A stretch of 64,000 nucleotides of DNA from positions 62,001 through 126,000 of the forward strand of contig BJGQ01000005.1 of NCBI GenBank assembly GCA_014190575.1, read 5' to 3'. Made by a program: the position numbers and the translations under genes. Positions 1-10,285 of the stretch are shown here, in pieces. A model generated the notes under the pieces. That model did not search any database. It was not told the origin of the DNA and was given only the letters and a program-made list of their open reading frames with translations. Numbering within the stretch: the stretch's first letter is position 1; every line of letters begins with the position of its first letter. The DNA is from Bacteroidota bacterium. GTDB taxonomy: Bacteria; Bacteroidota; Bacteroidia; Chitinophagales; UBA10324.

Positions 1-170
1 AACAAATCGCCAAGAATAAAAATGCACTGCGCGTCTTTCGAAACTTCGTCGAGCCACTGAATAAATAATTTCTCGCGCTGCAAACTTTTCTCGCGCGTGG
101 GCACACCGAGATGCAGATCAGAAGCAAAATAAATTTTCTTTCCGCTGTCAACGGAGATGGGGAACTGCAT
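1..170 (-). CDS. Metallophosphoesterase, UDP-2,3-diacylglucosamine hydrolase-like (5' part only, runs off window)
   Basis: Reverse-strand reading from CAT at 168-170: MQFPISVDSGKKIYFASDLHLGVPTREKS...FILGDL; DLHLG and GDL metallophosphoesterase motifs; start overlaps the stop of the upstream LUD gene. Confidence 0.8.
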   Translation of the reverse strand, partial: MQFPISVDSGKKIYFASDLHLGVPTREKSLQREKLFIQWLDEVSKDAQCIFILGDL

Positions 171-814
171 CAGCGAACCGGATCGTCAATCAAAAAAACA
201 TAAACTTCTTTCGGACCATGCGCACCGAGCACTAAAGTTTTTTCAATATCCGCCGTACGGCTCGGACCCGTTGCAATCGAAATCATACTCGGCAGATTGC
301 CTTCATATTTCTGTAACACTAATTGCACTGCATCCTTAATATCAAAAACCAGTTGCGAAGTATAAGCCACCACAATATGAATGGGCGGAAAGATAGTCAA
401 ACTGCGACCGCTCTGCTGCCGGCTCGTGAGCAAAATGCTGCCAGTGCGCGCCACTAAGCACTCGCACAAAGTAATTCCGGCATCGGCTTTATCAATTGTT
501 TTTCCCACGCGGCATTTATTAAAATCGAATCGCTGAAATAAATCCTGCAGCGGTTTTTCCCAGCAGTACAAATGATTCCAGCCCTTCTCGTTCGCCACCG
601 CTGAAATGGATTGAATGAACTCAGCAATGTTTTCGCAGTAAATAAAATTGCCCTGAATTTTTGTGAACTGCTCTGCAAAAACCACATCCAGTGTATCGGT
701 AGGCGCCGGATAAACCGAAGCCGTCTGGTAAATATTCGGAAAAGGAATGTTGGTGGAATGAATGAGCGCCTTCCGAATTTTTTTCAGCACGCGCTCTTTA
801 CTGGTTGGCTCCAT
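170..814 (-). CDS. LUD domain protein (LutC/YkgG-like, lactate utilization)
   Basis: 214 aa ORF; ITLCECLVARTGSILLTSRQQSGRSLTIFPPIHIVVA resembles LUD-family core. Confidence 0.8.
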   Translation of the reverse strand: MEPTSKERVLKKIRKALIHSTNIPFPNIYQTASVYPAPTDTLDVVFAEQFTKIQGNFIYCENIAEFIQSISAVANEKGWNHLYCWEKPLQDLFQRFDFNKCRVGKTIDKADAGITLCECLVARTGSILLTSRQQSGRSLTIFPPIHIVVAYTSQLVFDIKDAVQLVLQKYEGNLPSMISIATGPSRTADIEKTLVLGAHGPKEVYVFLIDDPVR

Positions 815-999
815 AGTTTTTATTAGTGAAGCAAAAGTAGAAATAAGCGTTTAACAATTTAATTTCTTCATTTTCATTTAACCACAATGACAATAAGAGA
901 CACTTGTTTCAAAAATTTTCCCTCAATCAGTAAGAACAATTTTCTAAATACAATCAGGATTAATACGCCTTTCTATATTTGTTTCGTTCAATCATCAAA

Positions 1000-2841
1000 A
1001 TGTTTTCGCGCTTCGTTTTTATTCTCTCCGTATCATTTCTTTTTTCATGTCAACATGAAAACACATCGCAAACCGCTGTTCCGGATAACCGCGTGCTCAC
1101 CAATGCCGATGGCGATTACATTCAGTTGCCCGATGCGCTGAAATTTTTGAGCGACTGGAAAAAAGAAAATAACTTAACGGTGCAGTGGATGCAGGAACCC
1201 GACAATCTGCATCCGTGTAACGGTCGCACACTTTCGCGCGCCATTGTTTTTACACTGATACACCGCTCACTGCTTTCGATTGACCCAATGACGCGCAAAC
1301 TGAAAGCTGACCTGGTAAAAGAAATTCCGGTCTCGCACGACGGACTCACTTATCGTTTTGAACTGAAAGACGAACCCGCGTTTGATGATGGCGCTCAACT
1401 GACTGTGGACGATGTGATTTTTTCTTTCAAGGCATATACCTGTCCGCTGGTGAATGTGTCGGGCAGAAGCGCGCTGAATAATTTGCTGAATATTGTAAAA
1501 GATAATTCGAATGCGCGCGCGTTTACGGTGACGATGAAGAAGGTTCTGGCGCAAAACCTGTTTATACTCACCGACTTTCCGATACTGGAAAAGAAATTTT
1601 ATGATGCGGATGATGCTTTGAAAAATTATCCGGTGAATTGGGTGAATGTGGAAGACCAGCCCGGCATGAATAAAACTTTTCCGACTGCGTGGGCTGCTGC
1701 GTTTAATGATGGCAAGTACGGCAATGACCCAGCGCTGATTAACGGGCTTGGTGCTTACAAAGTGAAAAGCTGGGAGCGCGGACAAACTCTGACACTGGAA
1801 ATGAAAAAAAATCACTGGACAGAAAAATTGTCTGCCGAAATTTTAAATCAGTTTTATCCGAAGCAAATCAATTTTAAAATTATCACGGACGAAAACGCGA
1901 TTCTGTTGGCGGCGCGCAATCAGGAATTTGATGCGAGCTTCTGGCTGCCATCGAAGGTGTTGCTCGAATTGCATAAGGATTCGTCGTTCACCAAAAATTA
2001 TAATTCGTGTTACACGGCGAGTTACGATTTCTCGTACATCGGTTTCAACCTGAAGCCGCAGGAAAGCAAGCGCACCGATTTTTTTTCGGACCTGAATGTA
2101 CGCAAGGCATTTGCGATGCTCACGCCCGTTGACCTTATGATTCAGAATTTGTTCAGCGATAAAGCGCTGCGCATGTCGGGCATTGTGTCGCCATTGAAGA
2201 AAGATATTTTCAATGATGATTTGAAATCGTATTCGTTCAATATTGATGAAGCAAAAAAATTACTGAGCGATGCGGGCTGGAAGGATTTGGACGGCGATAA
2301 AATTTTAGATAAAATAATTAATGGAAAGAAAACGGATTTGAAAGTGGAATTGATTTTTCCGCTCGGTCCTTCTGTGATACAGGACATGGCGCTGATGCTG
2401 AAAGATGTGTATGCAAAAGCGGGAATTGATTTGCAGCCGCAGGTGCTCGACCCCAATGCGCTGGGAGGAAAAATGGTGTCGCACGATTTTGATTTGTTCA
2501 TGAGCGGACTCAGTTCGAGTTCGGCGCCGAGCGATTACACCGGCACCTGGAGCACTGCCGCGTGGCTCAATCACGAAAATAATTTTACCGGATTCGGAAG
2601 CGCAGCGAGCGATGCGCTCATTGATTCCATTAATGTAACACTCGATGAAGCGAAGCGCGCGCAACTCGAAAAAGCGTTTCAGAAAATGGTGTACGATAAT
2701 TATCCCATCATTCCGCTTTACTTCAATGTGAAAAAAATTGTAGTGCACAAGCGCTGGGTAAATGCCATTGTATGTTTCGACAAGCCGTACATTTTATTCG
2801 GTCAACTGGAATTGCTCAATGAAAAAAAACAACCGGAGTAA
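1000..2841 (+). CDS. ABC transporter substrate-binding lipoprotein, family 5 (peptide/oligopeptide type)
   Basis: ORF track starts at TTG 979; ATG at 1000 gives lipoprotein signal MFSRFVFILSVSFLFSC; SBP_bac_5-like body. Confidence 0.85.
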   Translation: MFSRFVFILSVSFLFSCQHENTSQTAVPDNRVLTNADGDYIQLPDALKFLSDWKKENNLTVQWMQEPDNLHPCNGRTLSRAIVFTLIHRSLLSIDPMTRKLKADLVKEIPVSHDGLTYRFELKDEPAFDDGAQLTVDDVIFSFKAYTCPLVNVSGRSALNNLLNIVKDNSNARAFTVTMKKVLAQNLFILTDFPILEKKFYDADDALKNYPVNWVNVEDQPGMNKTFPTAWAAAFNDGKYGNDPALINGLGAYKVKSWERGQTLTLEMKKNHWTEKLSAEILNQFYPKQINFKIITDENAILLAARNQEFDASFWLPSKVLLELHKDSSFTKNYNSCYTASYDFSYIGFNLKPQESKRTDFFSDLNVRKAFAMLTPVDLMIQNLFSDKALRMSGIVSPLKKDIFNDDLKSYSFNIDEAKKLLSDAGWKDLDGDKILDKIINGKKTDLKVELIFPLGPSVIQDMALMLKDVYAKAGIDLQPQVLDPNALGGKMVSHDFDLFMSGLSSSSAPSDYTGTWSTAAWLNHENNFTGFGSAASDALIDSINVTLDEAKRAQLEKAFQKMVYDNYPIIPLYFNVKKIVVHKRWVNAIVCFDKPYILFGQLELLNEKKQPE

Positions 2842-2843
2842 TT
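2822..2843 (+). repeat. Left copy of flanking duplication: aaaaaaaacaaccggagtaatt
   Basis: Matches 3779-3800 at 21/22 positions; contains the stop codon of the SBP gene. Confidence 0.85.
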
Positions 2844-2850
2844 GAAACCT

Positions 2851-2890
2851 CAAAGTCCCAGCAGGGTTACACGAAGTGAACCCTGCGTTT
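2851..2890 (+). repeat. REP copy 1 (caaagtcccaGCAGGGTTaCACgaaGTGAACCCTGCgttt)
   Basis: Hairpin 2861-2886, 11-bp stem with one bulged A. Confidence 0.85.
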
Positions 2891-2929
2891 ATTACAAGAG
2901 GTCACGAATTAAGGAAATTTTAAAACTAA

Positions 2930-2966
2930 GTCTCAGCAGGGTTACTGTATTCAGAACCCTGCGTTT
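2930..2966 (+). repeat. REP copy 2 (GCAGGGTTaCTGtattCAGAACCCTGC)
   Basis: Hairpin 2936-2962; inner CTG/CAG replaces CAC/GTG of copy 1. Confidence 0.85.
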
Positions 2967-3000
2967 GATATAGATAAAGATGATTGATTAAGTTTGTTTC

Positions 3001-3594
3001 ATGAGCACAAGAACAGAGATTGAAAACCTGACAGGTTTTTATTACATCACTTTTACTTGTTACAAATGGATTCCGATGTTCAGTGAATTAAATTTTTATG
3101 ACAGGATATATCACTACTTCACAAAGTTGATTGAGAAAGGGGAAACGATTTCTGCTTATGTTATTATGCCTAACCATTTGCACTTTATCATGTTTCATGA
3201 AGAAGAAACTGGAAAATTAAAATCACTCGTTTCAAACCTGAAACGATTTCTTGCTTATGAAATAGTTGAAAAGTATAAATCAACTTTTAATCATTCACGA
3301 TTAGCGCAATTGTCTGAAGCAATTACTGAAGTTGAAAGAAAAAAAAATCAACTGCATCGAGTGTTTGAAAATTCATTTGATGTGAAGTGGTGCGCAAGTG
3401 AAAAGTTCATAATTCAAAAACTGAATTACATTCATAACAATCCGATTCAACCAAAATGGAATTTAGCAACTATTCCTTCTGAGTATTTTCACTCTTCAGC
3501 ATTATTTTATGAAACAGGAAATCTTGAATCGGCTAAAATTCCATTAGTTCATTGGCAACAAAGACGCTGGCAGGAGTATGATAAAGAACATTGA
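3001..3594 (+). CDS. REP-associated tyrosine transposase (RAYT), Y1/IS200-like HUH family
   Basis: MPNHLHFIMF (HUH motif) and KLNYIHNNPIQ (catalytic Tyr region); flanked on both sides by REP palindromes. Confidence 0.9.
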   Translation: MSTRTEIENLTGFYYITFTCYKWIPMFSELNFYDRIYHYFTKLIEKGETISAYVIMPNHLHFIMFHEEETGKLKSLVSNLKRFLAYEIVEKYKSTFNHSRLAQLSEAITEVERKKNQLHRVFENSFDVKWCASEKFIIQKLNYIHNNPIQPKWNLATIPSEYFHSSALFYETGNLESAKIPLVHWQQRRWQEYDKEH

Positions 3595-3602
3595 TACGCT
3601 TA

Positions 3603-3637
3603 TGTCGCAGGGTTCTGATTACAGTAACCCTGCTTGG
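3603..3637 (-). repeat. REP copy 3, reverse orientation
   Basis: gcagggttctgattacagtaaccctgc at 3607-3633. Confidence 0.8.
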
Positions 3638-3646
3638 ACACCTCCA

Positions 3647-3682
3647 GTCTCAGCAGGGTTACACGAAGTGAACCCTGCGTTT
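3647..3682 (+). repeat. REP copy 4
   Basis: gcagggttacacgaagtgaaccctgc at 3653-3678, identical to copy 1 hairpin. Confidence 0.85.
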
Positions 3683-3693
3683 ATAGCGCCAAT

Positions 3694-3733
3694 AGCGCAG
3701 GGCTCTGAATACAGTAACCCTGCTGGGACTTTG
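3694..3733 (-). repeat. REP copy 5, reverse orientation
   Basis: gcagggctctgaatacagtaaccctgctgggactttg; hairpin 3697-3723. Confidence 0.8.
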
Positions 3734-3737
3734 GGTG

Positions 3738-3777
3738 AACGCAGGGTTCTGATTACAGTAACCCTGCTGGGACTTTG
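3738..3777 (-). repeat. REP copy 6, reverse orientation
   Basis: aacgcagggttctgattacagtaaccctgctgggactttg; hairpin 3741-3767. Confidence 0.85.
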
Positions 3778-3778
3778 T

Positions 3779-3800
3779 AAAAAAATCAACCGGAGTAATT
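3779..3800 (+). repeat. Right copy of flanking duplication: aaaaaaatcaaccggagtaatt
   Basis: 21/22 match to 2822-2843; abuts the permease start codon. Confidence 0.85.
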
Positions 3801-3801
3801 A

Positions 3802-4917
3802 ATGCGCCGCCGGATTCTCACTCGATTGCTTTGGATGGTGCCGGCGCTGTTTGTGGTTTCGTTGCTGGTTTTTTTTATCAATGCCTCCGGAAATCAGCAG
3901 GGGAATTTTATGGATACGCAATCGGAGAATATTTCGTCCGGCGATTTCTCTCAGCAAAAAATTAAAAATCAACTCCCTGTTTTTTATTTCAGTGTTACAT
4001 CGCTCAGTGAACCTGATACCATATGGAAAATGAATGACGATGAAAAAGAATTGCTTTACAAAAATGCTTCCTGGAAAAAATTTATACCGGTCATTCATTT
4101 CTATGGCGACAATCAATATCACCGCTGGCTTTTCGGCGACAACAGCGATGGAAAAAATTACAAAGGAATTCTCAGAGGAGATTTTGGTGTGTCAACAGAA
4201 ACCGGATTGCAGGTTTCACAATTATTATATCCGAGATTTTTTCGCTCGTTCATTTTGGTTTTCATTTCGATGATGCTTGCTTTCTTTCTCAGCATTCCAT
4301 TATCTGTTTTCTTAGTGTTGAATGAACAGAAAATTATTTCAAAAATCATTCGCGGAATTTTATTGATGTTGTACATCATTCCGGTTTTCTGGCTGGCGAT
4401 TTTGTTGCTGATGTTGTTTGCCAATTCTAAAATGATTTCCATTTTTCCATTGAGCGGCTGGCCCGACAGTGGCGAAGGATTTTTCAGTTATGTGCATCAT
4501 CTTTTTCTTCCGGTGATGTGTTACACGCTTGGTGCTATTGCCTACTTCACACGAGCATTGGAAACAAATCTGAAGGAAGTGTTACACAAAGAATTTTTAT
4601 TGACCGCAAGAGCAAAAGGATTTGACAATACGCAATCATTATTGAAACACGCATTGCCGCACGCCATTATTCCTGTGCTGACAGTACTCGGCTATTTATT
4701 TCCGATGGCAGTTGGCGGCAGTGTCATCATTGAAACCATTTTCGGAATCCCCGGAATGAGTAATGCTTTGTTTCATGCAGCACTCACAAAGGATGTTCCG
4801 GTGTTGGCAGCAATCAGCACACTTTCATGCTTGCTGACATTGGTTGGTTTTTTACTCACTGAAATTTTGCAGGCATTTATTGATCCTCGGCTTCGTCAAA
4901 CTCAACAACTTTCATGA
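3802..4917 (+). CDS. ABC transporter permease (DppB/OppB family)
   Basis: Multi-TM; LTARAKGFDNTQSLLKHALPHAIIPVLTVLGYLFPMAVGGSVIIETIFGIPGM EAA-loop region. Confidence 0.9.
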   Translation: MRRRILTRLLWMVPALFVVSLLVFFINASGNQQGNFMDTQSENISSGDFSQQKIKNQLPVFYFSVTSLSEPDTIWKMNDDEKELLYKNASWKKFIPVIHFYGDNQYHRWLFGDNSDGKNYKGILRGDFGVSTETGLQVSQLLYPRFFRSFILVFISMMLAFFLSIPLSVFLVLNEQKIISKIIRGILLMLYIIPVFWLAILLLMLFANSKMISIFPLSGWPDSGEGFFSYVHHLFLPVMCYTLGAIAYFTRALETNLKEVLHKEFLLTARAKGFDNTQSLLKHALPHAIIPVLTVLGYLFPMAVGGSVIIETIFGIPGMSNALFHAALTKDVPVLAAISTLSCLLTLVGFLLTEILQAFIDPRLRQTQQLS

Positions 4918-5972
4918 ATAAGATTTTAGAAAACTTATTCAGAAAAAATTCTTCGCTCAGTTGGGGCGCAGGAATTTTATTGGCGATTGTGTTGCTGAGT
5001 TTTATTTCTGTTCTGTTGCCAGAAACATTTTTTGAAAATGACTGGGGCGCATTATTACAATCACCTTCAACTAATCATTTACTCGGAACAGGTTCACGCG
5101 GAAATGATATTGCCGCCGGAATTATTTCAGGATTAAAAATTTCATTAACAGTTGCATTACTCAGTGTAATTTTTGCAACACTGATTGGTTTGCCTTCAGG
5201 TTTGATAGCAGCAACTTTCGGGAACAAAGGCAAAGCAGGAATCAAACAATTGATTTTCTTTTTTATTTTTTTAGTGCTTGCCTGGTTCTATGCTTTTTAT
5301 CTGCGAAGATTTGAAATTGCTGATGCCTCATCGGATTCTTTCAGTATGATTTCAGAAATCCTGTTTTCATTTTTTTTGTTCATTGTCATTCTGATGATTG
5401 GATATTTTTTCGCGGCAAAAATTCTTTCTCCACTTAAAAATTTCATTCCGGTGCAATTACCGATTGATACTTTGCTCTCCACACTTGCTGATATTATTAC
5501 TTCGTTTCCGTTGCTGATGATTATTCTCACGCTTACTGCCATTGCAAAACCATCGTTGTGGTTGGTGGTTGTAATAATTGGATGCACTACATGGACAGGA
5601 ATTTTTCGGGTGGTTCGTTCAGTTGCATTGCAAACTTTACAACTCGATTTCATCACCGCCGCAAAAGCAATGGGAATGAAAACACGAACAATCATTCTAA
5701 AACATGTGATGAGTTCAGTGCTGCCGATGTTGTTTGTTCATCTCGCATTTACTTTTTCAGCCGCGATAGTTTTGGAATCTGCTTTAACTTTTCTCGGCGC
5801 CGGATTGCCGGTGGGCACTGTTACACTTGGCTCACTTTTGTCGGATGCAAAATCAAATTTTACTGCGTGGTGGCTGGTGCTTTTTCCGGGAGTGGTTTTG
5901 TTTTTATTGTTGCTGAGTCTGCAATTAATCGCAAGCGGACTGCAGAAAAAATTCAATCCTCGATTGAGATAA
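4914..5972 (+). CDS. ABC transporter permease (DppC/OppC family)
   Basis: DFITAAKAMGMKTRTIILKHVMSSVLPMLFVHLAFTFSAAIVLESALTFLGAGLP; ATGA overlap with upstream permease. Confidence 0.9.
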   Translation: MNKILENLFRKNSSLSWGAGILLAIVLLSFISVLLPETFFENDWGALLQSPSTNHLLGTGSRGNDIAAGIISGLKISLTVALLSVIFATLIGLPSGLIAATFGNKGKAGIKQLIFFFIFLVLAWFYAFYLRRFEIADASSDSFSMISEILFSFFLFIVILMIGYFFAAKILSPLKNFIPVQLPIDTLLSTLADIITSFPLLMIILTLTAIAKPSLWLVVVIIGCTTWTGIFRVVRSVALQTLQLDFITAAKAMGMKTRTIILKHVMSSVLPMLFVHLAFTFSAAIVLESALTFLGAGLPVGTVTLGSLLSDAKSNFTAWWLVLFPGVVLFLLLLSLQLIASGLQKKFNPRLR

Positions 5973-6006
5973 ATCCTCGATTATTTTCGCATCCAAATTT
6001 TCCAAG

Positions 6007-6327
6007 ATGATAATTTATAATGTGACAGTGAAATTGGATGCGATGATTGCTACTGAGTGGCTCGAATACATGCAGGAAATTCATATTCCCGATGTGATGA
6101 ATACCGGATGTTTTTCTTCCTACCGAATCAGTCGCCTGATTGAAGACACAACTGAAGATGATAGCCCGACTTACATAATTCAATATCATTGCCCTTCCAT
6201 GGAAGTATTTGAAAAGTATGAACAGAATTTTGCAACCGAATTGAGAGAAGATGTTATAAAAAGATATAAAGACCGCTTTGTTTCTTTCAGAACATTGATG
6301 GAAGAAATATCAAATAGTGAAAACTGA
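6007..6327 (+). CDS. DUF4286 family protein
   Basis: MIIYNVTVKLDAMIATEWLEYMQEIHIPDVMNTGCFSSYRISRL. Confidence 0.75.
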   Translation: MIIYNVTVKLDAMIATEWLEYMQEIHIPDVMNTGCFSSYRISRLIEDTTEDDSPTYIIQYHCPSMEVFEKYEQNFATELREDVIKRYKDRFVSFRTLMEEISNSEN

Positions 6328-8450
<2,123 letters not shown>

Positions 8451-8451
<1 letters not shown>

Positions 8452-9470
8452 TGGTGCAACGATTATCAGTTGAAGAATTTTTAGCAAAATCGAAAGGCAA
8501 AACAATTATTGATGTTCGTTCGCCAAAAGAATTTTTACACGCTCATATTCCGAATGCAATTTCACTTCCGCTTTTTTCAGATGAAGAAAGAGCAGAAGTA
8601 GGAACTGCATACAAACAAAAAGGTCGCGAAGAAGCTATGCTAATTGGTTTGAAACATTATGGCGTTAACATGCAGCGCATCATCAGTGGAATAAAAGAGA
8701 ATGGAAATCCGAAGGAGTTGTATGTGCATTGCTGGCGCGGTGGAATGCGCAGTGGCGTGGTGAGTTGGATGCTCGATTTATTCGGCTACAAAGTCTTCAC
8801 TTTAGAAAAAGGATATAAATCATTCCGGCATTTTGTACTCGCACAGTTCGAAAAAAAATATCCGCTGCAGATTCTTGGTGGAAGAACCGGTTCTGCAAAA
8901 ACTTTAGTGCTAATAGAACTGCAGAAAAAAAATCAGCAGGTGATTGACTTGGAAGGGAAGGCAAATCATAAAGGTTCTGCATTTGGTGCGTTGGGTGAAG
9001 CACCACCACCCTCGCAAGAGCAGTTTGAAAATTTTTTAGCGCTTGAATTATTGAATTGTGATTCAGCAAAACCAATCTGGCTCGAAGATGAAAGTCAGCG
9101 AATCGGTTGGGTGAATATTCCAAATAATATGTGGGCGCAGATGCGTGAAGCAAAAGTTTTTTATCTCGATGTGCCGTTTGAAGAACGATTGGAATACATC
9201 GTAGAAAATTATGGAGTGTTTGATGTTGAACATTTAAAAGATGCCACAAACAGAATTTCACAAAAGTTAGGCGGACTGAATACCAAACTCACCTTGCAGT
9301 TTCTTGACGAGAAAAATTTCACGGAAGCATTCCGCATACTGTTACACTACTACGATAAGTTTTATGACAGAGCAACTGATAAGCGGGAAGTTTCTTCAGT
9401 TCAAAAAATTGGGTGCGAAGAAATTTCACCTGAAAAAAATGCACAAAAAATATTGGAAACAGTATTGTAA
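8451..9470 (+). CDS. mnmH: tRNA 2-selenouridine synthase MnmH/SelU
   Basis: Rhodanese HCWRGGMRSG plus P-loop GGRTGSAKT. Confidence 0.92.
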
Positions 9471-9610
9471 TTCGACCACCCCATTTCGTCTCAGTGTTCT
9501 TGCCGAGATGAAAAAAATATTCTGAATTGTAGTCGGCTCACGAGCGCAATATTTAAGGTTTGCTTATATGGAAACCTTGATGTATCCTTGCATAGAAACC
9601 GCAAAGAGTA

Positions 9611-9949
9611 ATGCAGTCAAAGTTCGAAGTGCTATTTATGGAAGATACAAGAGCATTTATTGCTTCGCTCGATGCAAAAACCAGAAACAAAATCATTTTC
9701 AATATTGACCGGGCTAAGATTCATAATGACAAAGAACTTTTTAAAAAACTCACAGAAAACATTTGGGAATTCAGAACGCTATTCAACAAAACTCATTACC
9801 GCCTTTTTGCTTTTTGGGATAAAAGAAGTAAAACAGAAACACTGGTACTCACTACTCACGGAATAATTAAGAAGACAGGTAAAACACCGGAAAAGGAAAT
9901 CGATAAAGCAGAAAAATTAAGAGCAGATTATTTCAGAATAAAAAAATAG
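9611..9949 (+). CDS. Toxin, HigB/RelE-like (Gp49/DUF891 family)
   Basis: KLTENIWEFRTLFNKTHYRLFAFWDKRSKTETLVLTTHGIIKKTGKTPEKEIDKAEKLRADY. Confidence 0.85.
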   Translation: MQSKFEVLFMEDTRAFIASLDAKTRNKIIFNIDRAKIHNDKELFKKLTENIWEFRTLFNKTHYRLFAFWDKRSKTETLVLTTHGIIKKTGKTPEKEIDKAEKLRADYFRIKK

Positions 9950-9955
9950 GACACA

Positions 9956-10285
9956 ATGGCAGCAAACAACAAAATGAAACTCTATCAATTCAATGAAATC
10001 AAGGATGAGTTTATTGGTAAGCGAGGAACAGAAGCGCGTGAACTTTACGAGCAAGAACTTCAACTAGAAATATTGGGAGATATGATAAAGCAGGTGCGCA
10101 TTCATCGCAACCTTACACAAGAGCAGTTAGGAAAATTAATTGGTGTGCAGAAGGCGCAAATATCAAAACTCGAAAACCATGCAACCAATGTCACGATTGA
10201 TACTGTGCTGAAAGTGTTCAATGCACTTAAAGCAAAAATCAGTTTCAAAGTGGAGTTGCAAAACCAACGGATAAAAATTGCTTAA
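9956..10285 (+). CDS. Antitoxin, HigA-like XRE-family HTH
   Basis: HTH VRIHRNLTQEQLGKLIGVQKAQISKLENH directly downstream of toxin. Confidence 0.88.
   Translation: MAANNKMKLYQFNEIKDEFIGKRGTEARELYEQELQLEILGDMIKQVRIHRNLTQEQLGKLIGVQKAQISKLENHATNVTIDTVLKVFNALKAKISFKVELQNQRIKIA

Follow-up and report, generated by a model that had tools for sequence, protein, structure and literature searches.

The window examined in the current study (64,000 nucleotides, contig C5:62001-126000 of the draft genome G000, 3.19 Mb in size) was compared with five genus mates (G011 to G015) and contains a cassette which is very probably a REPtron, i.e. cognate REPs accompanied by a RAYT gene whose product would bind and nick REPs as single-stranded DNA and move doublets of two REP arms in trans. 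An earlier note on this DNA had described six palindromes around one Y1/HUH gene, two upstream and four downstream and in both orientations, with a stem head of CAC/GTG in two copies and CTG/CAG in the others and with loops of different length; the coordinates (table 1) and the single-stranded DNA folds agreed with this description, the loops being 3 and 4 nt long, respectively. The spread of REPs is an open question, and biochemistry is limited to a few Proteobacterial systems.

Table 1. Coordinates of the cassette and its neighbours within the window
Feature	Position	Strand	Remarks
oppA-like oligopeptide-binding protein gene	979..2841	+	From the ORF list, named by inspection; syntenic in G011, G012 and G014
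Direct repeat AAAAAAAACAACCGGAGTAATT, 22 nt, left copy	2822..2843		Contains the oppA stop codon
REP unit 1	2861..2886	+	S arm, CAC-GAA-GTG; tag gtccca at 2855-2860
REP unit 2	2936..2962	+	L arm, CTG-TATT-CAG; tag gtctca
RAYT / TnpAREP-like Y1 HUH transposase gene	3001..3594	+	197 aa; from domain models, AlphaFold, Foldseek and profile alignment
REP unit 3	3607..3633	-	L arm, CTG-TAAT-CAG; tag gtccaa
REP unit 4	3653..3678	+	S arm, CAC-GAA-GTG; tag gtctca
REP unit 5	3697..3723	-	L arm; one G-T wobble in the foot; tag gtccca
REP unit 6	3741..3767	-	L arm; tag gtccca, pointing outward; outermost downstream REP
Direct repeat AAAAAAATCAACCGGAGTAATT, right copy	3779..3800		Just ahead of the oppB start; junction single copy in G012
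oppB-like permease gene	3802..4917	+	From the ORF list, named by inspection; syntenic in G011-G014

The RAYT protein and its REP units

The HUH motif of the window protein is NHLH (residues 58-61) and the catalytic Tyr143 lies within YIHNNP (Y143-P148); in the protein alignment, the columns of Y143, H145 and N147 were invariant across 34 relatives. Sequence models from NCBIfam and Pfam detected the protein weakly. REP_Tyr_transpos (equivalog NF047646) gave an E value of 2.8e-17 and 62.9 bits, below an 80-bit cut-off that bounds this equivalog model and not the whole RAYT family, and Y1_Tnp gave an E value of 0.0057, also below its cut-off. On these scores the window RAYT is clearly related to NF047646 but outside the equivalog.

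The AlphaFold model of the protein had a pLDDT of 91.7, and its top PDB match in Foldseek was 4er8, the E. coli RAYT with a bound REP hairpin (E 7e-7), followed by IS200/IS605 transposase structures as the next best matches. When the protein alone was searched against PDB sequences no match was returned, and 4er8 was reached by sequence only through a profile of the RAYT family, for which it was again the best PDB match (hmmsearch, E 6.5e-10). Judged by its modelled fold and its motifs, the window protein is a RAYT. The alignment of this profile with 4er8 placed F122, E123, V128, K129 and A132 of the window RAYT at the positions of W94, Q95, E100, H101 and R104 of the E. coli RAYT, a region involved in GTAG recognition, although the role of W94 itself is unclear (PMC6006769, PMC8266576).

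Each REP unit is built of an 8-bp foot (GCAGGGTT/AACCCTGC), a bulged A on the 5' side, a 3-bp head and a loop of 3-4 nt. Folded as single-stranded DNA, the six units reached -8.5 to -11 kcal/mol (z -4.2 to -6.6, with no shuffle equally good); for the unit at 3697, the foot lost its innermost pair, which adjoins the wobble, in the minimum-energy fold. Rfam gave no match in window positions 1-10000 at E values up to 1. The 5' foot is preceded by GTCYCA or a near variant, the GT being invariant in 14 aligned units, which confirms the strand polarity that had been noted earlier; the canonical GTAG/GTGG tetranucleotide was absent from this position.

Dispersal and heterotypic doublets

The exact pattern GCAGGGTT-N4-20-AACCCTGC was matched at 13 places in the genome (3.19 Mb), and the reversed control had no match. 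A covariance model, which was trained on L arms only because MAFFT misplaced the S/L loop gap when all 14 units were aligned, found 18 matches, 15 of them at E < 1e-6. Matches on C8 and C35 (E 0.002-0.004) were left out of the REP count. By inspection 16 units were clear, of which six belong to the cassette and the other ten are spread over eight loci; this number is below the more than 100 copies usual for REPs.

The same model gave 45 matches in G011, 25 in G013, 12 in G014, 27 in G015 and one in G012. In G011 an intact RAYT, 94% identical to that of the window, lies at the same oppA/oppB junction, and both REP subtypes are present. The RAYTs of G014 and G015 are 47-50% identical and adjoin a second REP family, GCAGGGTC-T-TCC...GGA-GACCCTGC, in which the last foot pair and the head are altered in a compensated fashion and the bulged architecture is retained. 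Across the genus, foot position 8 is T-A or C-G, and the head pairs vary as C-G/T-A, T-A/A-T/C-G and G-C/C-G. Support for the compensatory stem changes claimed in the earlier note comes from these relatives; the window alone offers a single two-state contrast in the head. A further system of this kind is carried by Mucilaginibacter gossypii Gh-67, with 27 exact units including several inverted doublets, and this organism could serve for experiments.

The proposal of a RAYT cassette with cognate REPs is therefore borne out by the dispersal, by the shared pairing in G011 and by the compensated REPs beside the more distant RAYTs. The earlier note had listed observations that would speak against it (no REPs elsewhere in the genome together with a different cognate REP for the RAYT clade in relatives, or local terminator duplications), and neither of these was found.

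The 91 genus units of the first REP family comprise 24 S arms (CAC, 3-nt loop) and 67 L arms (CTG, 4-nt loop). Sixteen tight inverted doublets, with a gap of 9-12 nt, were found in the genus, and 15 of them paired an S with an L arm, compared with 39% expected (p 7e-6; 0 of 100000 permutations). Outside the cassettes, 15 of 21 S arms and 15 of 56 L arms belonged to doublets (p 5.5e-4). Both of the covarying subtypes proposed earlier are therefore present, not as two REP families but as the two arms of one heterotypic doublet, and two inverse REPs form the repeated unit, as in BIMEs and REPINs.

Energies were computed for the doublets with DNA parameters, as nearest-neighbour estimates at 37 C for DNA free of proteins. 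In seven heterotypic doublets the two-hairpin state and the best structure differed by 0.3-2.5 kcal/mol, mostly about 0.5, whereas the sole homotypic doublet favoured the long hairpin by 11.7 kcal/mol. These values give a physical reason for the pairing of unlike arms: mismatched heads would weaken cross-arm pairing and bring twin RAYT-ready hairpins close to the long hairpin in energy, and heterotypy may in this way keep such hairpins available.

From homology and genomics we infer that the RAYT would bind the REP most likely as single-stranded DNA only, e.g. on the lagging-strand template, and would recognise it by its 5' GTCYCA tag together with the bulged hairpin. Tyr143 would nick beside the hairpin, and REP doublets would then be moved or copied to new sites in trans. 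The mobile doublet would consist of an S arm and an L arm, inverted, with their 3' ends facing and about 10 nt apart.

Two individual doublets were also recorded. A 191-aa ORF with a signal-peptide-like stretch on contig C33 of the window genome (L010, 1479-2051) carries an in-frame REP doublet directly behind its start codon, and G011 has no doublet there. In G011 (L036, 2567-2830) a small ORF and a homotypic REP doublet with perfect 28-bp arms, both missing in the window, lie between oppA and the RAYT gene.

A Bacteroidota clade of RAYTs and known systems

In a tree of 82 RAYTs (quick search, midpoint root), 50 sequences including the window RAYT formed one group (SH-aLRT 99) apart from the 32 others. 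Most members of this group, hereafter the F clade, have F in place of the W of the published W motif, and the window RAYT has F122-E123. Bulged REPs, counted where at least two hairpins had a common foot, adjoined 22 of the 50 F-clade RAYTs and none of the 32 sister RAYTs, while unbulged hairpins of at least 9 bp adjoined 0 of 50 and 12 of 32, respectively. Shuffled flanks gave 0 of 82 under the strict hairpin rule, by which 28 of the 50 F-clade RAYTs had no bulged REP pair. The feet seen across the clade include CAGGGT, CAGAGT, CATCGT, CAACGT, CGGGGT, CCGAGT and CCGTGT, and GT precedes the innermost pair in all; as the units were found by pairing, their near-complete pairing is by construction, and only the variety of compensated pairs counts as evidence. 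These results support the assignment of the window RAYT to a Bacteroidota clade in which the GTAG-reading residues are replaced and the tag is GTCYCA instead. The F clade is thus a natural swap experiment, in which the tag and the residues expected to read it are altered together and the bulge is kept.

Some single loci bear on neighbouring subjects. At L089, where the RAYT gene lies at 395-916, units on the plus strand have 4-bp heads and those on the minus strand 3-bp heads, i.e. heterotypic arms in another lineage. The RAYT frame of Fulvivirga sp. M361 (L102:3001-3474) has one in-frame stop, yet bulged REPs lie around it. The window genome holds a second RAYT of the W type, 35% identical (L017, C41:26502-26966), with unbulged hairpins around it, and two genes on C36 and C62 (L001 and L002) with strong Y1_Tnp matches that are possibly ordinary IS200-type transposases.

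The cassette resembles the E. coli REPtron (TnpAREP 4er8; y/z1/z2 REPs, BIMEs; PMC8266576, PMC6006769) in its Y1 HUH fold, its inverted REP arrays around the gene, a stem irregularity, a tag on one strand, and two related arm types that alternate in inverted pairs, the S/L doublets being similar to the y/z arrangement of BIMEs. It differs in its tag (GTCYCA instead of GTAG), in the replacement of the residues of GTAG recognition, in having one bulged base where E. coli has an AA/GC mismatch, and in copy number (16 compared with about 600).

REP/RAYT pairs had been described in the earlier note as established mainly in Proteobacteria, which is only partly right, since RAYTs from Bacteroidetes that have non-GTAG palindromes were already described as TnpAREP subclass 2.6, or Bertels group 5 (Quentin et al. 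2018, PMC6006769). The window system is like that subclass in its Bacteroidota host, its NH[LIV]H and YIH[QN]NP motifs and its flanking palindromes without GT[AG]G and with copies elsewhere in the genome. However, the published motif is WQ, in contrast to F-E here, and the structures of subclass 2.6, compared by their published description only, have been called weaker and atypical, whereas strong bulged hairpins were found here. The sister clade, unlike the F clade, keeps the W and has unbulged hairpins. The F clade thus shares its taxon and two motifs with subclass 2.6 and differs in WQ and apparently in REP strength, and some of its members may fall inside that subclass.

Pseudomonas REPINs (PMC3116915) are comparable in that an inverted doublet is the presumed mobile unit, a RAYT acts in trans and singlets also occur. 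The heterotypic arms and the 9-12 nt spacer are differences, as are flanking direct repeats (see below), of which no description was found in the portion of the REPIN account drawn on here.

Gain, loss and flanking repeats

At the oppA-oppB locus G012 has an empty junction, where oppA directly adjoins oppB. G013 and G014 have one REP and the RAYT leader left at this site, and the RAYT is gone. These scars upstream of oppB (L286 in G013, L287 in G014) consist of a REP and the leader GATTAAGTTTGTTTCATGAG, and in G014 another gene is in place. G013 has REPs without an F-clade RAYT, which fits the decay scar at its oppA/oppB junction, and with its 25 REP matches it shows that REPs can persist without the enzyme. 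Dispersed sites were polymorphic too. For the C444 doublet of G011, G015 shows a clean empty site. At C33 the doublet is present in G000 but missing in G011, and the C22, C258 and C189 sites are occupied in G011 and miss the REP in G000 and G015, all of these being occupied/empty comparisons unpolarised by any species tree.

Transcription terminators or mRNA-stability hairpins, multiplied locally beside a RAYT that is an incidental neighbour, would fit the stability of the hairpins and the position of the dispersed copies, which are mostly intergenic or directly after stop codons. We nevertheless regard this explanation as extremely improbable: the stem is not followed by a T-run but by GTTT or other bases, both orientations occur and the 5' tag is conserved, the foot, bulge and head are common to the cassette and the dispersed copies, one doublet lies in frame at a gene start, and the architecture accompanies one RAYT clade across Bacteroidota and is absent at the sister clade. 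That the cassette is an ordinary insertion sequence of the IS200/IS605 family, which scattered its end hairpins through its own past transposition, is also very improbable. The window RAYT has the same Y1 HUH fold as such elements (IS608, ISDra2), which are the next best fold matches, and by homology it would share their single-strand, hairpin-guided chemistry. Its Y motif, however, is YIHNNP (YxxxNP) and not the YxxxQ of subclass 1.1 (PMC6006769), many REPs lie away from the gene and are frequently inverted doublets, and the gene is not multiplied, no second close copy being found in the window genome (next match 35% identical).

It is also unlikely, on the present data, that the REPs are relics and that the RAYT, domesticated for another single-stranded DNA task, no longer moves them. 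The loss of the RAYT in G013 and G014 with persistence of REPs, the many imperfect units and the general behaviour of RAYTs as vertically inherited genes (PMC6006769) are consistent with this explanation, but the clean empty site opposite the C444 doublet, the perfect units kept in several genomes and the intact 94%-identical ortholog argue against it.

The direct repeats around the cassette (table 1) suggest a possible mode of insertion. Direct repeats scoring at least 14 were found at six sites among 26 doublets and the cassette, compared with 0.57% when flanks were cross-paired and none in 100 displaced windows, the numbers being small, the flank length and score having been picked after the first cases, and most genus genomes being drafts. 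The repeats at C203b of G011 measured 65 nt and those at C22, which are diverged, about 60 nt; the cassette has repeats of 22 nt, C46 of 15 nt and C444 of 13-17 nt; that of 17 nt at C57 of the window genome is doubtful and may be a dispersed simple repeat. Several of these repeats abut REP tags. A single repeat copy was present at the empty site of a relative for C22, C444 and the cassette, and for the flanks of C203b and C46 no counterpart was found in the five genus mates. Deletion between repeats could also yield the single-copy sites. In M. gossypii Gh-67, which has a different REP foot, exact repeats of 20 and 16 nt were found at two of 21 clusters, compared with 0.5% in the control. Around other F-clade REPtrons direct repeats were not general, and the matches at L089 were the REP arrays themselves.

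We tentatively suggest, as a possibility only, that REP doublets and the whole cassette duplicate 13-65 nt of their target on insertion. A nascent strand might switch to a RAYT-cut doublet and re-join its template at an earlier point, the heterotypic arms would provide a built-in two-state hairpin, and the REPtron would have moved as a unit into oppA-oppB. IS200/IS605 elements make no larger target duplications (PMC2817692), REPtrons reportedly do not transpose as whole units (PMC6006769), and no mention of target duplications in RAYT systems was found in the limited literature consulted. Insertion footprints are something that any copy mechanism must explain. It was also found that two doublets of G011 (L172 and L173 on C203), which lie 7.5 kb apart, have identical linkers and unrelated flanks, and that one of them is inside the 65-nt direct repeats.
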